From: SAR86 cluster bacterium SAR86E
GTDB taxonomy: Bacteria; Pseudomonadota; Gammaproteobacteria; Magnimaribacterales; D2472
NCBI GenBank assembly: GCA_000307935.1
Contig: AMWX01000001.1
Span: 1 to 64,000 of the forward strand
DNA length: 64,000 nucleotides
Reading direction: 5' to 3'
This document shows positions 15,704-32,618 of the stretch, in pieces. The notes beneath the pieces are model-generated. The model worked only from the letters and a program-made list of their open reading frames with translations. It searched no databases and was not told the origin of the DNA. Position numbers and translations under genes: made by a program. Each line of letters opens with the position of its first letter. Position 1 is the first letter of the stretch.

Positions 15704-17419
15704 ATGACAGATAAATACAATCAAATCCTAGAGTCCTTGACTGCTCCTGATCAGGTTTTTGCCTATGCAGAAGAACAGCATTTATCGGGAGTAACATACA
15801 GAGAGTTTATTAACGCACCTCACACACTGGCAGCTTTTTTTGAGTTTGGATTAATGTTTCCTGAGTGGGAATTCATTGTTTTTCAAGATGAAAGATACTC
15901 ATATCAAGATATTCACACTAAAGCAGCACAAATGTCTAATGCTCTTAAGGAAGCAGGCATTCAAAAAGGTGATCGAGTGGCGATATGCATGGCGAACAAT
16001 CCTGAATACATAATTTCTTTTATGGCCATTACCTCAATGGGCGCAGTATGCGTGCTATTAAATTCATGGTGGGTTCCAGATGAGGTTAGCTATGGCTTAG
16101 ATAATTCTCAAGCTAAAATTTTAATTGCTGATCAAAAAAGACTGAGAGGCTTAGAAAGGTTTACTGATCTCAAAAAAATAATTGTTAGACCTGAAAATAA
16201 TCAGGATGAGTTTGAGGACTTTAATAGTTTTATTAACCTTCATGCAAAATCATTTTCCGAGGACACTTTAGACAGGCATGACAACGCTACTATTTTTTAT
16301 ACCTCTGGATCAACAGGCTATCCAAAAGGAGTCCTTTCTACTCATAGAAATATTTTAGCCACTCTTTTTAGCTGGGCTCTAGTCACCACGCTTAAGAGAG
16401 AGGTGGAAGCTGGTGAAGGTGAAAAACCAGCAGATAGCGATGCTGCTCCTGCAAATCAATCTGCAATCTTGCATTGCGTGCCTTTATTTCATGTTACAGG
16501 CAGTCACTCAGGTTTTTTAATGAGTATTATTGCTGGTAGAAAAATGGTCATGATGCCTAAATGGGATGCTGGTGCTGCATTAAAATTAATTCAAGATGAA
16601 AAAATTGGGGCAATAACTGGTGTTCCAACCCAAACCTGGGATTTGCTCACGCATCCAGATAAAGATAAATATGATCTTTCAACTTTTAAAGAGCTCAGTG
16701 GTGGCGGAGCTCCAAGACCTCCTGAGCATGTTAAAAAGCTTAAAGATGGCTTCAAAGATAGCGAACCATCAATCGGTTATGGTCTTACAGAAACGAACGC
16801 TGCTGGAACATTAAATTTAGGAAAAGATTATCTGTTGCATCCTGGTAGCTGTGGTCGAGCAATTCCCCCGGTTACTGATGTTGCAATAATTGATAAAAAT
16901 TGGAACTTTCTAGTCGAACCAAAAGAAGTCGGTGAAATTGTTATCAAGAGCCCAGCAAATATGGTTGGTTATTGGAATAATGAAAAAGCCACAAAAGAAG
17001 TATTCAATGACGATGGTTGGTTTAAATCAGGAGATCTTGGGTATATAGATGATGGCTTTGTTTACATTGTAGATAGAGTCAAAGATATGGTAATTAGGGG
17101 TGGAGAGAATATTTCCTGTATTGAGGTTGAAACTGCAATTTATAAGCATCCATCTATTAAAGAAGCAGCTGTTTTTGGAATTCCAGAAGAAAGACTCGGA
17201 GAAAATCTTTGTGTTTCTATCTGCCTGAAACCTGGTTCAAGCCTGAGGGAAGATGAGTTAAAGGAGTTTCTTGAGGACAAGCTAGCATCATTCAAAATAC
17301 CATCACTAGTTACAATTTCACATGAGGAGCTCCCGAGAGTTGCCTCAGGTAAATTTTCAAAAAATGAATTGCGTGACATCTTTGTTTCAAATATGAAAAA
17401 TGCAAGTAAAGATTCTTAA
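15704..17419 (+). CDS. Acyl-CoA synthetase (AMP-forming)
   Basis: A second class I adenylate-forming ligase, 571 aa. It has YTSGSTGYPKGV (about 203-214), GYGLTETNAAG (A5, about 357), GDLGYIDDGF (A7, about 446), the hinge DRVKDMVIRGGENI (about 458-471) and a catalytic Lys in VASGKFSKNE. It reads like the FadD/long- or medium-chain acyl-CoA synthetase group. It stands alone on the plus strand, divergent from the surface protease with 39 nt between, so a compact divergent promoter is expected. Chain length or ring preference is not evident. Confidence 0.92.
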   Translation: MTDKYNQILESLTAPDQVFAYAEEQHLSGVTYREFINAPHTLAAFFEFGLMFPEWEFIVFQDERYSYQDIHTKAAQMSNALKEAGIQKGDRVAICMANNPEYIISFMAITSMGAVCVLLNSWWVPDEVSYGLDNSQAKILIADQKRLRGLERFTDLKKIIVRPENNQDEFEDFNSFINLHAKSFSEDTLDRHDNATIFYTSGSTGYPKGVLSTHRNILATLFSWALVTTLKREVEAGEGEKPADSDAAPANQSAILHCVPLFHVTGSHSGFLMSIIAGRKMVMMPKWDAGAALKLIQDEKIGAITGVPTQTWDLLTHPDKDKYDLSTFKELSGGGAPRPPEHVKKLKDGFKDSEPSIGYGLTETNAAGTLNLGKDYLLHPGSCGRAIPPVTDVAIIDKNWNFLVEPKEVGEIVIKSPANMVGYWNNEKATKEVFNDDGWFKSGDLGYIDDGFVYIVDRVKDMVIRGGENISCIEVETAIYKHPSIKEAAVFGIPEERLGENLCVSICLKPGSSLREDELKEFLEDKLASFKIPSLVTISHEELPRVASGKFSKNELRDIFVSNMKNASKDS

Positions 17420-17471: not shown

Positions 17472-18167
17472 ATGTCAGCAACAATTCTAATAATTGAAGA
17501 CGAACCAGATATTCGCAAAACCATTGAATACAATTTAAAAAAAGAGTCTTACAAAGTTTTGCAATCAGCATCAATTGCTGATGGTGAGAATCTAATCAAT
17601 CAACACAAGATCGATGCAATAATACTTGACCTGATGTTACCTGACGGTTCAGGCTTAACACTGTGTAGAGATATTAAGTCAGAACCTAAGACCAAAAACA
17701 TTCCTGTTATTATCTTAACCGCTAAGACCGAGGAAGTTGATCGTGTAGTAGGTTTTGAGTTGGGAGCAGATGATTACGTTACAAAACCCTTTAGCGTAAG
17801 AGAGTTGATTCTGCGAGTTAAGGCAATTTTAAAAAGAGGCGATAAAGGTGTCACTAGCGACCAATCTGATACCTGCTCATTTGGAAGTCTTGATTTAAAT
17901 ATAGAGGCTCATCAAATCTTTGTAAATGGTAATGAGGTTCCGTTAACTGCTCTTGAGTTTAAACTGTTAAAGCACTTAGCTGATCGTCGAGGTAGAGTTC
18001 AGACCCGCGACCAGCTGCTTGAAGATGTTTGGGGCTATAGTTCTCAGGTTACAACAAGAACAGTTGATACTCATATTAAACGATTGCGAGAAAAGCTTGG
18101 TGAAGTTGGAAACTATATTCAAACTATTCGTGGTGTTGGTTATAGATTTTCTAGAAACCCTGACTAG
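17472..18167 (+). CDS. phoB: Phosphate regulon response regulator PhoB
   Basis: OmpR/PhoB-class regulator, 231 aa. The receiver domain has the acidic pocket (IEDEPD), phospho-acceptor D53 (ILDLMLPDG), LTAK and K105 (TKPFSVREL). The C-terminal winged helix keeps ALEFKLLKHL, SRDQLLEDVWG-like (RDQLLEDVWG) and the VDTHIKRLREKLG recognition helix with GVGYRF hairpin. High similarity to PhoB and the adjacent PhoR-type kinase support the name; PHO-box-like repeats at 32.4-32.6 kb give it nearby targets. No clear Pho box was found in front of phoB itself. Confidence 0.93.
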   Translation: MSATILIIEDEPDIRKTIEYNLKKESYKVLQSASIADGENLINQHKIDAIILDLMLPDGSGLTLCRDIKSEPKTKNIPVIILTAKTEEVDRVVGFELGADDYVTKPFSVRELILRVKAILKRGDKGVTSDQSDTCSFGSLDLNIEAHQIFVNGNEVPLTALEFKLLKHLADRRGRVQTRDQLLEDVWGYSSQVTTRTVDTHIKRLREKLGEVGNYIQTIRGVGYRFSRNPD

Positions 18168-18173
18168 CTAAAC

Positions 18174-19934
18174 ATGGGAATTCGAACCCGAATATTTTTT
18201 ATCACTCTTTCATGTTTGTTTGCGGGCATAACCTTGTCCTTTATTGTCGCTGAAAGAGATCTATCTATTAAGCTTCAAGAACAAATAGAAACAGAGCTCT
18301 CAAGACAAGCAAAAATCTTAAGAAAATCAATATCTGACTCATCCTTAAAAAATAGCCTCATCTCTTTAAAACAGCTTATCGATGAATATGCTTTTGCATC
18401 TGATTCAAGAATAACGATCATTAAAAAAAATGGCATAGTTACTGTTGATTCTGATGTTGATTTAGAAAGTATTCCTGCTTTAGAAAATCATAAAAATAGA
18501 CCTGAAATCATTGAAGCTTTTGAATCCGGTATGGGCTCAAGTAAACGATTTAGTTCAACCGTTCAAAAAGAAATGTTTTATTTTGCTTTGCGGGATGACT
18601 CTAATAATGAAAGTCAGGTGATCAGGATATCTGTACCCTATGAAAATCTCGATCAGGTTATAACTTCACTAGGAAACTCTATATCGTTAATTGTGGTTGT
18701 GGGGTTAATTGTTGCGATTCTCGCAAGTATCTTGGCTGGTGACTACATAAGATCAAGTTTTGTGGAGCTAGAGAGGGCTGCGTCTGAGATATCTGCTGGA
18801 AGTTACAAGAAAAAAAACTTTGCATCCTTGCCGACAAAACGCTCAGATGAAATCGGCTCGATGGCGCGAAATATATCTACAATTTCCTTAAACCTAAAAG
18901 ATCAAATCTCTCTAATTGCAAAGCAACGCGATCAGTTTGGGTTAGTCCTTGATGGACTGGGTGAGGGAATTATGGTCTTGAAGGAAGATGGTGAAATCAC
19001 TTATAGAAATGATCAAATCCTTCAAATATTTGATCTTGATGAAATACTCAATAAATCAATCCATGATCTTAATATTCAGCCACTAAGTCATATGTTTAAA
19101 AAAGCTCTAAAAAAAGGAAAATATGATTCCGAGTTTGAAATAGACACAGAGGAAGATTCAACTAGGTGGATCTTAGCTCATATGAATAAAGCAAAAGCTA
19201 CAAAAGAATTAATTCTTGTTGTGCACGAAACCACTCAACTTAGAGAGATGGACTCTATGAGAAGAGACTTTGTTTCCAATCTATCTCACGAACTTAGAAC
19301 ACCTGTGAGTGTTATTAAAGCAAATTCAGAAACTTTGCTTGATGGCGCTTTGGAAAATCCAAAGGACGCAAAAACTTTCTCAAAAGCAATTTTGCATAAT
19401 GCTGATCGTTTAAGTGAAATGGTCACATCTTTAATAGACTTATCTAGAATTGAATACGGCGATTTAAAATTTGTTATTGAAAGTCTTGTATTGAATCAAA
19501 TAATTGAAACCGTTATTTCTTCGTATTCAACAATGGCTAAAAGAAAAAATATTCAACTTTTATTTAATAGGCAAACAGATATTGAGGTCACGGGAGACTC
19601 TAAGGCAATAGAGAGGGTGCTAAATAATTTAATAGATAATGCTTTTAAATATAGCCCTGAGGATTCTGTGATCGAGGTTCAAGCCAGGAAACAGGGAGAT
19701 TTTGTAAAAGTATCTGTTATGGATGCTGGCATTGGCGTACCTGATGAAGAAAAAAGATTTGTGTTTCAACGATTTTATAGAACAGCTAAAGCTAGAGCCA
19801 ATGAAAAGCAAGGAAGTGGTCTTGGTTTAGCCATAGTAAGAAACCTGGTAAATAATCTTAAGGGCGAAGTGGGGGTTGAAAGCAGAAGAGATGGTGGCTC
19901 TGAATTTTGGTTTACGGTTCCTGTTTCTGAATAG
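18174..19934 (+). CDS. phoR: Phosphate regulon sensor histidine kinase PhoR
   Basis: Membrane histidine kinase, 586 aa, longer than E. coli PhoR (431). Order: TM1 (about 7-27), an extracytoplasmic domain of about 140 residues, TM2 (about 168-188), HAMP (about 190-243), PAS (about 255-345), HisKA with H372 (SNLSHELRTP), and HATPase with NLIDNAFKYSPED, GVPDEEKRFVF and GSGLGLAI. The layout is closer to Bacillus PhoR/PnpS-type kinases with a sensory outer domain than to short enteric PhoR. It starts 6 nt after phoB. No pstSCAB-phoU is in view, so its partner sensor complex, if any, is elsewhere. Confidence 0.9.
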   Translation: MGIRTRIFFITLSCLFAGITLSFIVAERDLSIKLQEQIETELSRQAKILRKSISDSSLKNSLISLKQLIDEYAFASDSRITIIKKNGIVTVDSDVDLESIPALENHKNRPEIIEAFESGMGSSKRFSSTVQKEMFYFALRDDSNNESQVIRISVPYENLDQVITSLGNSISLIVVVGLIVAILASILAGDYIRSSFVELERAASEISAGSYKKKNFASLPTKRSDEIGSMARNISTISLNLKDQISLIAKQRDQFGLVLDGLGEGIMVLKEDGEITYRNDQILQIFDLDEILNKSIHDLNIQPLSHMFKKALKKGKYDSEFEIDTEEDSTRWILAHMNKAKATKELILVVHETTQLREMDSMRRDFVSNLSHELRTPVSVIKANSETLLDGALENPKDAKTFSKAILHNADRLSEMVTSLIDLSRIEYGDLKFVIESLVLNQIIETVISSYSTMAKRKNIQLLFNRQTDIEVTGDSKAIERVLNNLIDNAFKYSPEDSVIEVQARKQGDFVKVSVMDAGIGVPDEEKRFVFQRFYRTAKARANEKQGSGLGLAIVRNLVNNLKGEVGVESRRDGGSEFWFTVPVSE

Positions 19935-31238: not shown

Positions 31239-31721
31239 ATGCGTAATGATTTAGAAAAACGTGTTCAAGAGCTAGAGGATATTTTAGCTATCCAACATTT
31301 GAAACATGCTTATCTTAATGCATGTGATGCAAAAGATGTGCCGGCTATGATTGAAACCTTTGTGATCTCTGATTGCAAGATTGATTATGGCCCAGTTGGC
31401 TCTTTTACAAATAGAGATGATCTAGCAAAAGTTTTTCAAGAGATCGCATGCCATGACTACATGCTTGAATCTCATCATGCTCATAATCCAATTATTAAAA
31501 TTATTGATGCCAACCATGCAACTGGTCATTGGTCCCTTGCTTATAATTTAATTAATACTGAAAATTCATCAATCACAACCTTACAGGGTGAGTATCATGA
31601 CGTGTATCAAAAAATTGATAATCAGTGGCTGATTAAAGAAACAACATTTTCTGGTCGTTCATCTTTGAATTTGCAAATAGATGAAGAATTACTAAAGGTA
31701 ATTTTTGCAGGCAGCCCTTAA
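31239..31721 (+). CDS. SnoaL-like / NTF2-fold protein
   Basis: A 160-aa cone-fold protein of the SnoaL/NTF2 superfamily: an N-terminal helix (LEKRVQELEDILAIQHLKHAYLNACDAKD), a ligand-pocket segment with FVISDCKIDYGPVG, and strands with HATGHWSL and GEYHDVYQKIDNQWLIKETTF. Related domains include bile-acid 7-alpha-dehydratase BaiE and ketosteroid isomerase, but many have no known substrate. It converges on a TetR gene with 4-nt overlap and is similar in outline to the protein at 45117. Confidence 0.8.
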   Translation: MRNDLEKRVQELEDILAIQHLKHAYLNACDAKDVPAMIETFVISDCKIDYGPVGSFTNRDDLAKVFQEIACHDYMLESHHAHNPIIKIIDANHATGHWSLAYNLINTENSSITTLQGEYHDVYQKIDNQWLIKETTFSGRSSLNLQIDEELLKVIFAGSP

Positions 31722-32311
31722 GCGGGTGTTGCAATGCAGCTTAAAAGATACGCATTAGCGGCGCGGACTGCTTCATTCAGACCTACATCCGTAAGTCCCG
31801 AATTTTCTTTAGTGTTCAATGAGAGGATAGAGATAATAATTTGAGTCACCACCAAAAAGACTCCCGATTTATTAAACATATTGGGTAGGCCTACAGATTT
31901 TTCTATGTGTTGCAAAATTGTTTCTGCTATCTCATGCAGATCTGAGCTCAAGATAGGAGGGGAGACAGTGTTTTCAAGGATTAGTTTTTGTGCGCCTGAA
32001 TGACTTTGAAAGAATTCAATAATCGAGATAACACATTCTTTCAAACACCCTAAATAATCACCCTCTGAATTTTTGGTTAGATTTTTTTTAAGATGGGAAT
32101 TGCAATCCTGAATATATCTCTTAATTAGGGCTTGCTTGATTTCATCTGGAGTTTCAAAGAATTTATAAGTAGAGGTGCGTTTTAAATCTGCAAATTCAGA
32201 AATTTTTGCAATTGTTAGAGATTCAACGCCTCCTTCGCTCAATAGATCATTGGACGCATCTAATATCTTATTAATACGCTCTATGCTTCTTTGTTGCTTG
32301 GGTTTTTGCAT
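31718..32311 (-). CDS. TetR-family transcriptional regulator
   Basis: A 197-aa repressor. The N-terminal helix-turn-helix runs KILDASNDLLSEGGVESLTIAKISEFADLKRTSTYKFF in the positions typical of TetR (about residues 13-50), and the C-terminal ligand domain is divergent. It points away from the Pho-box region and shares a 398-bp intergenic stretch with pit. An inverted repeat 18 nt upstream of its start could be its operator. Ligand unknown. Confidence 0.9.
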   Translation of the reverse strand: MQKPKQQRSIERINKILDASNDLLSEGGVESLTIAKISEFADLKRTSTYKFFETPDEIKQALIKRYIQDCNSHLKKNLTKNSEGDYLGCLKECVISIIEFFQSHSGAQKLILENTVSPPILSSDLHEIAETILQHIEKSVGLPNMFNKSGVFLVVTQIIISILSLNTKENSGLTDVGLNEAVRAANAYLLSCIATPA

Positions 32312-32328
32312 GATTTCTTATTATCGAC

Positions 32329-32350
32329 ATTTGTTGTGAAAAAAACAAAT
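32329..32350. promoter_or_regulatory. Inverted repeat, possible TetR operator
   Basis: ATTTGTT (32329-32335) and AACAAAT (32344-32350) are perfect inverted arms around 8 nt, 18 nt before the TetR ATG. Position and symmetry suit autoregulation; sequence alone does not prove it. Confidence 0.35.
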
Positions 32351-32382
32351 AAATGTAGCACTTATCAATAAAATGGTGTATT

Positions 32383-32411
32383 GTGTCATTTGTGTGACAT
32401 TAATGTGTCGC
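32383..32411 (+). promoter_or_regulatory. Triple Pho-box-like direct repeat
   Basis: Three heptamers occur with exact 11-bp period: GTGTCAT (32383), GTGACAT (32394), GTGTCGC (32405). The PhoB box is two CTGTCAT-like heptamers at the same period, so this looks like one and a half boxes. A -10-like TAGAAT (32421-32426) follows 9 nt later, a spacing close to that of known Pho promoters. From that -10, transcription would start near 32433, inside the small ORF that begins at 32428. Confidence 0.72.
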
Positions 32412-32427
32412 ACAGGAAACTAGAATT

Positions 32428-32553
32428 ATGAATACAAAAAAAGTACTTAAGCAGCAGGGCTTGCTACCAAAAACATCCAAATTTAATGAAATGCAAATGT
32501 TTGGATTTCTATCTATGTGGGTTGTTTTATCCGCTGTTATATTTTTCTCTTAA
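32428..32553 (+). CDS. Putative 41-aa small membrane protein behind the Pho box
   Basis: A 41-codon ORF with a basic N-terminus (MNTKKVLKQQGLLPKTSKFN) and one hydrophobic helix (FLSMWVVLSAVIFF). AGGAAA at about 32414-32419 is a plausible ribosome-binding site. It lies 17 nt after the triple Pho-box repeat. A caution: the best -10 (TAGAAT, 32421) would put the transcript start just past this ATG. Either another promoter is used or the transcript is a leader/sRNA and the ORF is fortuitous. I know no family for it. It ends 156 nt before pit. Confidence 0.45.
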   Translation: MNTKKVLKQQGLLPKTSKFNEMQMFGFLSMWVVLSAVIFFS

Positions 32554-32600: not shown

Positions 32601-32618
32601 GTGTCATTTTGACGTCAT
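32601..32618 (+). promoter_or_regulatory. Pho-box-like repeat upstream of pit
   Basis: GTGTCAT (32601-32607) and ACGTCAT (32612-32618) sit 11 bp apart, matching the two-heptamer PhoB box with an AT-rich 4-nt spacer. Weaker heptamers continue the period (TTCATTG at 32623, GTCACAT at 32634). TGAAAT at 32628-32633 could serve as -10 at the same 9-nt spacing seen in the upstream box, and TATAAA at 32660-32665 is another candidate. It lies about 90-110 bp before the pit ATG. Confidence 0.68.

Follow-up and report, generated by a model that had tools for sequence, protein, structure and literature searches.

Analysis of a 64-kb stretch of the SAR86 cluster bacterium SAR86E genome (the window, by which the whole of that stretch is meant) revealed a triple Pho-box-like repeat directly before a conserved gene for a 41-residue, single-helix membrane microprotein, which is followed by the gene for the transporter Pit. 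The microprotein gene is inherited with one clade of Pit proteins, and in sister genomes the same box heads a pstS operon. We put at about even the chance that the microprotein is a PhoB-controlled partner of Pit that adjusts its activity.

The repeat was as the initial annotation had described it. Re-reading of the positions placed three TGTCA-type heptamers, GTGTCAT (H1, 32383..32389), GTGACAT (H2, 32394..32400) and GTGTCGC (H3, 32405..32411), on the forward strand just 5' of the small open reading frame (ORF), their hexamers TGTCAT (32384-32389), TGACAT (32395-32400) and TGTCGC (32406-32411) being spaced by exactly 11 bp. The segment 32383-32411 has the make-up of a Pho box, that is, at least two direct 7-nt repeats with an 11-bp period. 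Column conservation among 14 representatives from two SAR86 families showed the GTGTC of H1 to be invariant (14/14), as were the GTGWCA of H2, which also resembles a -35 element (cf. TTGACA), and the TGTC of H3. A fourth, degenerate heptamer, GAAACTA (H4, 32416..32422, forward strand), follows in 11-bp phase; it reads GTTACTA in the other family, and its G 32416, A 32419 and C 32420 (G--AC) were present in all 14 representatives. The middle repeat contains TGACA, the reverse complement of TGTCA, and the mix of TGTCA and TGACA seen in relatives fits a direct repeat GTG(T/A)CA, for which the best in-phase frame was GTG(T/A)CAT at 32383, 32394 and 32405.

The box is not a chance occurrence. In its own genome (1.4 Mb, 88% complete) it was the sole site with zero or one mismatch to TGTCA-N6-TGWCA-N6-TGTCR, and with up to three mismatches there were 54 matches versus 35 for the reversed control, loose matches being near the control level. 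The strict TGTCA triple pattern had no match in this genome because the middle repeat is TGACA. The PhoB motif scan that the initial annotation had proposed, performed on the 64-kb window with a heptamer matrix, gave the box a score of 31.7, and five shuffled windows reached at most 14.8. A weaker Pho-like pair, GTGTCAT-N4-ACGTCAT, lies before pit (32601..32618, forward strand) and is variable in relatives. Another weak pair on the forward strand, GTGACAT-N4-GTTTCAA (17373..17390), is about 80 bp 5' of phoB, lying within the end of the preceding gene, and scored within the range of the shuffled windows; autoregulation of phoB through this pair is possible.

In E. coli the Pho box consists of direct 7-nt repeats with an 11-bp period before phosphate genes, with the motif CTGTCAT (PMC4415409). 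The SAR86 system resembles this regulon in its 7-nt direct repeats at 11 bp, in the presence of phoB and phoR, and in the occurrence of the motif before aquaporin-arsC-pstS in sister genomes. It differs in its motif, GTG(T/A)CAT, in having three to four repeats and in their distance of 16-18 nt from the ATG, and also in that no PhoU or PstS was found in this SAR86 genus.

The distribution of the box and the ORF was compared over 203 SAR86 genomes. The ORF was encoded in 37 of them, from two families, and the exact 17-base triple pattern was found in 33, with no occurrence of the reversed pattern. Both were present together in 30 of the 37 ORF genomes (Fisher p ~1e-25, uncorrected for relatedness). 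In the remaining seven ORF genomes, all of genus g15, the exact pattern was not found; two of their loci were inspected, and there the third repeat reads ATGTC. The initial annotation had held that its reading would fail if relatives kept neither the heptamers nor the reading frame, and relatives keep both. Among 369 sampled genomes of the class, only those of SAR86 had the ORF. As these genomes are partly incomplete, an absence from any one of them is weak, and it is the pattern across many genomes that counts.

The three genomes that have the pattern and not the ORF are sister genomes, also from g15, in which the same box stands before an aquaporin-arsC-pstS operon. A further four genomes from g15 have, at the same place before this operon, a box whose first repeat is GTGAC. 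The box therefore precedes known phosphate genes within one lineage, namely pit where the ORF is present and pstS operons in these three and four genomes. Both arrangements have homologous porins upstream (75% identity between loci L020 and L147), and therefore one locus appears to swap its cargo, either ORF and pit or the pstS operon, under a single Pho box. Loci L020 and L135 have the order box-ORF-pit, and loci L146-L148, L168 and L175 the order box-aquaporin-arsC-pstS, all of them beside a homologous porin. Judged from these comparisons, the either-cargo locus is the strongest evidence that the repeat is a true Pho box.

The window also encodes the likely regulators. A phoB response regulator gene (17472..18167, forward strand) was assigned by TIGR02154 and by its recognition helix, and is followed on the same strand by a gene for a PhoR/PnpS-like sensor kinase (18174..19934) with sCache-like, HAMP, PAS, HisKA and HATPase domains. 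The window PhoB is 40% identical to that of E. coli, and the recognition-helix regions match closely (RTVDTHIKRLR in the window, RTVDVHIRRLR in E. coli); its TIGR02154 match (1e-73) is below the curated cut-off, as are those of all relatives. Together with the identical box before aquaporin-arsC-pstS, these genes make Pho control of the box and ORF, as predicted from sequence, well supported. This part of the initial annotation held up, and the induction that it had assumed is, as a sign of control, something we infer from the evidence on transcription below.

The helpers that usually accompany such regulators were largely not detected. None of 60 SAR86 genomes searched, including the PstS genomes G040 and G058, had a match to PhoU (PF01895), and the control genomes did score. 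PstS (PF12849) was over the cut-off in 15 of the 203 SAR86 genomes, and none of the 203 had both PstS over the cut-off and the ORF; in the f3 genera g12, g15 and g19 there were 17 genomes with the ORF, nine with PstS and none with both. A search for PstS with TIGR00975 gave no match in 45 genomes, this model being too narrow. PitR/DUF47 (PF01865) was found in family f2 only, where it occupies the position directly upstream of pit, and never together with the ORF. The ORF product itself had no Pfam match, and so has neither a PF01865 nor a PF01895 domain.

These patterns bear on whether the microprotein might be a third type of sensing adaptor, which would couple Pit to the PhoR-like kinase and replace PhoU or PitR as the brake on the Pho system. 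In Staphylococcus aureus such a job is done by PitR, which is linked to Pit and restrains PhoR, and in many genomes that have no PitR, pitA adjoins the gene for SCO1846, a small membrane protein (PMC13170248); the distribution of PhoU and PitR in SAR86 is likewise in favor of an adaptor. However, the ORF follows Pit rather than PhoR, and most SAR86 genomes bearing PhoBR do not have it. In addition, the kinase may sense outside signals itself through its sCache-like periplasmic domain, which would fit the missing PhoU and may leave no need for an adaptor. We therefore regard this role as unlikely. Less likely again is the wider proposal that, following PhoU and PitR, the microprotein represents a further, new class of accessory regulator, coupled to Pit, which would report phosphate import to PhoR in cells without PhoU, PitR or Pst, combined with a PhoB-operated switch that would drop its start codon from the starvation pit transcript.

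The microprotein resembles PitR/DUF47 (PF01865) in being encoded by an accessory gene directly upstream of pit (PMC13170248), but PitR is a soluble, PhoU-like protein of about 230 residues, and the microprotein has 41 residues and one helix. With SCO1846 it shares being a small membrane protein that adjoins pitA where PitR is absent; SCO1846, compared here by description only, is larger, at one third of PhoU. Another small protein linked to Pit is MgtS of E. coli, which has 31 residues and is thought to inhibit PitA (PMC10710835). Both are tiny single-helix membrane proteins, but no alignment between them was obtained at E<=100, the MgtS gene is not beside pitA, and the control for which MgtS is known concerns magnesium, not phosphate (PMC10710835).

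The ORF (32428..32553, forward strand, ATG at 32428) is a genuine gene under purifying selection, as judged from its codon pattern. Against the three closest relatives, the changes at first, second and third codon positions were 0, 0 and 6; 0, 1 and 8; and 1, 0 and 11, and dN/dS among close relatives was about 0.02-0.2. The length is about 41 residues in all members, the protein is recognizable at 41-61% identity among relatives, and K4, L7, L12, P14, M22, G26 and L34 remain unchanged even where identity falls to 39-41%. The single transmembrane helix that had been predicted from the sequence was borne out by hydropathy, with a peak of 1.95 over residues 22-40, and by the AlphaFold model, in which residues 16-40 form a helix (mean pLDDT 81). 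With a net charge of +4 in its N-terminal half, the protein is predicted by the positive-inside rule to have its N terminus in the cytoplasm. A terminator-like hairpin at 32517-32534 lies inside the ORF and looks unconserved, and was rejected as functional.

The initial annotation had left two options, a small protein or an untranslated leader or sRNA. The conservation analysis that it had suggested, covering Ka/Ks and preservation of the frame, came out for the small protein, with selection and constant length across 37 genomes. A 5' leader or sRNA with a fortuitous ORF would account for a transcript start at TAGAAT falling inside the ORF, but as the sole reading it is refuted by the codon pattern (no more than one first- or second-position change against 6-11 at third positions in the closest relatives), and the constant length and the 41-61% identity of the protein also count against it; nor did any Rfam family match the box and ORF stretch. 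We give it almost no weight.

The microprotein could alternatively be a type I-like toxin, or a free-standing membrane peptide of another kind with no relation to Pit, since its size, single helix and positive N terminus are typical of such peptides. We consider this very improbable, because the gene is single-copy, is strictly tied to one Pit clade and is strongly constrained along its whole length, and because neither an antisense RNA family (Rfam) nor phage or PHROG relatives were found. The microprotein matched no family in Pfam, NCBIfam or PHROGs, a PDB profile search returned chance matches only, and searches of plasmid and phage collections gave no match. It represents a new microprotein family of narrow distribution, placed in a regulatory setting of a known type.

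The tie to Pit is seen in gene order and in inheritance. The ORF is followed by pit, which encodes a PiT-family transporter (PF01384; 32710..33960, forward strand), at every locus that extends far enough, and downstream in the window on the same strand are a porin gene (PF13609; 33964..34893) and a phytase gene (PF02333; 34932..35978). Reverse-strand genes on the other side are a divergent TetR-like regulator (31718..32311), found only in this genus and absent at the loci of the other family, a polyphosphate kinase 2 (PF03976; 30277..31113) and a Ppx/GppA phosphatase (PF02541; 29422..30276). An imperfect inverted repeat, ACATTTGTT...AACAAATAAATGT (32327-32355), lies before the divergent TetR-like gene and is kept within this genus; it is a plausible autorepressor operator. 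The window Pit reaches the curated cut-off neither of PitA nor of a CysP sulfate-permease model, and phosphate as its substrate is suggested by the genomic context. No phosphate importer other than Pit was found in this genus.

In the Pit tree, the Pits of ORF genomes form one clade (22/22, against 0/18 from ORF-less genomes; support 99) that spans two SAR86 families, and an IQ-TREE Pit tree agrees once duplicate loci from the same genomes are counted. Pits from g12, g15 and g19, which are f3 genera, branch among the Pits of family f1, and the Pit of f3 genus g16 is distant. The one genus mate that has pit without the ORF (G018) carries a Pit of another branch. The simplest account of this tree would be that box, ORF and pit were transferred as a unit between SAR86 families. 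Synteny, the Pit clade and the AlphaFold helix together describe a single-helix protein genetically tied to Pit. Since the microprotein tracks Pit and not PhoR, its most likely role would be as a partner of Pit; this partnership is read from inheritance and neighborhood, which could alternatively reflect descent of all carriers from one linked ancestor.

The position of the transcription start is a puzzle that the initial annotation had raised and that stands. The hexamer TAGAAT (32421..32426, forward strand; candidate P2 -10) is exactly where it had been placed, 9 nt after H3, and is poorly conserved. It would direct a start at about 32433, 5 nt inside the ORF, and in most members a -10 at this spacing likewise gives a start within the ORF. 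An E. coli-type Pho promoter would start 5' of the ATG, from a -10 that follows the last heptamer by about 10 nt, an arrangement that this locus does not show: the ATG lies 16-18 nt after H3 in most members, and an E. coli-like Pho start would be about 22 nt after H3. One candidate reading of TAGAAT with E. coli spacing is a pit transcript that would start 5 nt inside the ORF. The distance from box start to ATG varies from 46 to 59 nt across relatives and the relation of ATG to TAGAAT is inconstant; exclusion of the ATG is therefore not a kept design. The pst-type promoters are spaced differently from the ORF locus, with their best -10, TATATT, 24 nt downstream of H3.

A leaderless start at the ATG (32428) is possible. 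In a 264-kb sample of this genome (ten stretches, 183 genes), 15 of the 183 genes had TANNNT beginning 12 nt upstream of the ATG, versus about six per position elsewhere, with clear cases of TATAAT-N6-ATG, and SD-like motifs preceded only about one quarter of the genes. Leaderless-type TANNNT motifs 12-13 nt before the ATG are seen, for example, at pit (32710) and phoB (17472). At the ORF, the -10 position required by a leaderless start coincides with the first six bases of H4, and the hexamer there, GAAACT or GTTACA, is a poor -10; the GTGACA of H2, 16 bp upstream, is a potential -35.

A third candidate, P1, consists of a -35 at TAGCAC (32356..32361; TTGATA or TTGCAT in some relatives), a weak consensus match, and, 17 bp downstream, a -10 at TATTGT (32379..32384), which overlaps H1, both on the forward strand. 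TATTGT was present in 12 of the 14 representatives and reads TAATGT in the other two. Transcription from P1 would start at about 32391 and place the Pho heptamers at about -8 to +32, and a Pho box over the start implies repression. In such a promoter switch, phosphorylated PhoB in starved cells would silence the microprotein gene and may also initiate, at TAGAAT, a pit transcript that lacks the ORF start codon, so that the protein would be made only under ample phosphate, to restrain Pit. The conserved promoter columns favor P1: no -10-like hexamer other than TATTGT is conserved in both families, T32356 and G32358 are present in 14 of 14 representatives, and pst-type boxes are without TATTGT. 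In addition, because the upstream gene is divergent in this genus, the full ORF needs either a promoter within 32312-32427 or a start at the ATG itself. Downregulation of pit under phosphate stress is known from Sinorhizobium meliloti, where the Pst and Pho transporters take over (PMC8829014); that operon is similar in combining an accessory gene and pit under phosphate control, but no Pst was found in this SAR86 genus.

Against repression, P1 is a weak sigma-70 match, the consensus promoter scan found no promoter where 3.5 were expected, and the relation of ATG to TAGAAT on which the switch would depend is inconstant. The top sites of a sigma-70 matrix scan differed among relatives. The homologous box heads pstS, a class that is normally induced, and Pit is the sole importer found; together with prior knowledge of Pho boxes, these points favor activation. 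We judge activation of the ORF-pit unit to be probable, and repression of the ORF, with the switch built on it, to be possible but doubtful.

Based on these observations, we propose that four in-phase heptamers, three strong and one weak, form a PhoB operator at the head of a two-gene unit of microprotein and pit. When phosphate is scarce, phosphorylated PhoB would bind as tandem dimers and most likely switch the unit on, with RNA starting leaderless at the ATG or, for a pit transcript, a few nucleotides inside the ORF. The microprotein would then reside in the inner membrane, with its N terminus inside and its C-terminal helix in the membrane, where it would bind Pit and tune its activity or stability.

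Few bacteria of the surface ocean are as abundant as SAR86, and much of this group depends on Pit rather than Pst for its phosphate (PMC11582366). A PhoBR system was detected, and PhoU and, in most genomes, PstS were not. The microprotein belongs to a family of a kind usually missed by annotation and, as a conserved protein linked to both PhoB and Pit, is a concrete candidate for the missing phosphate control.
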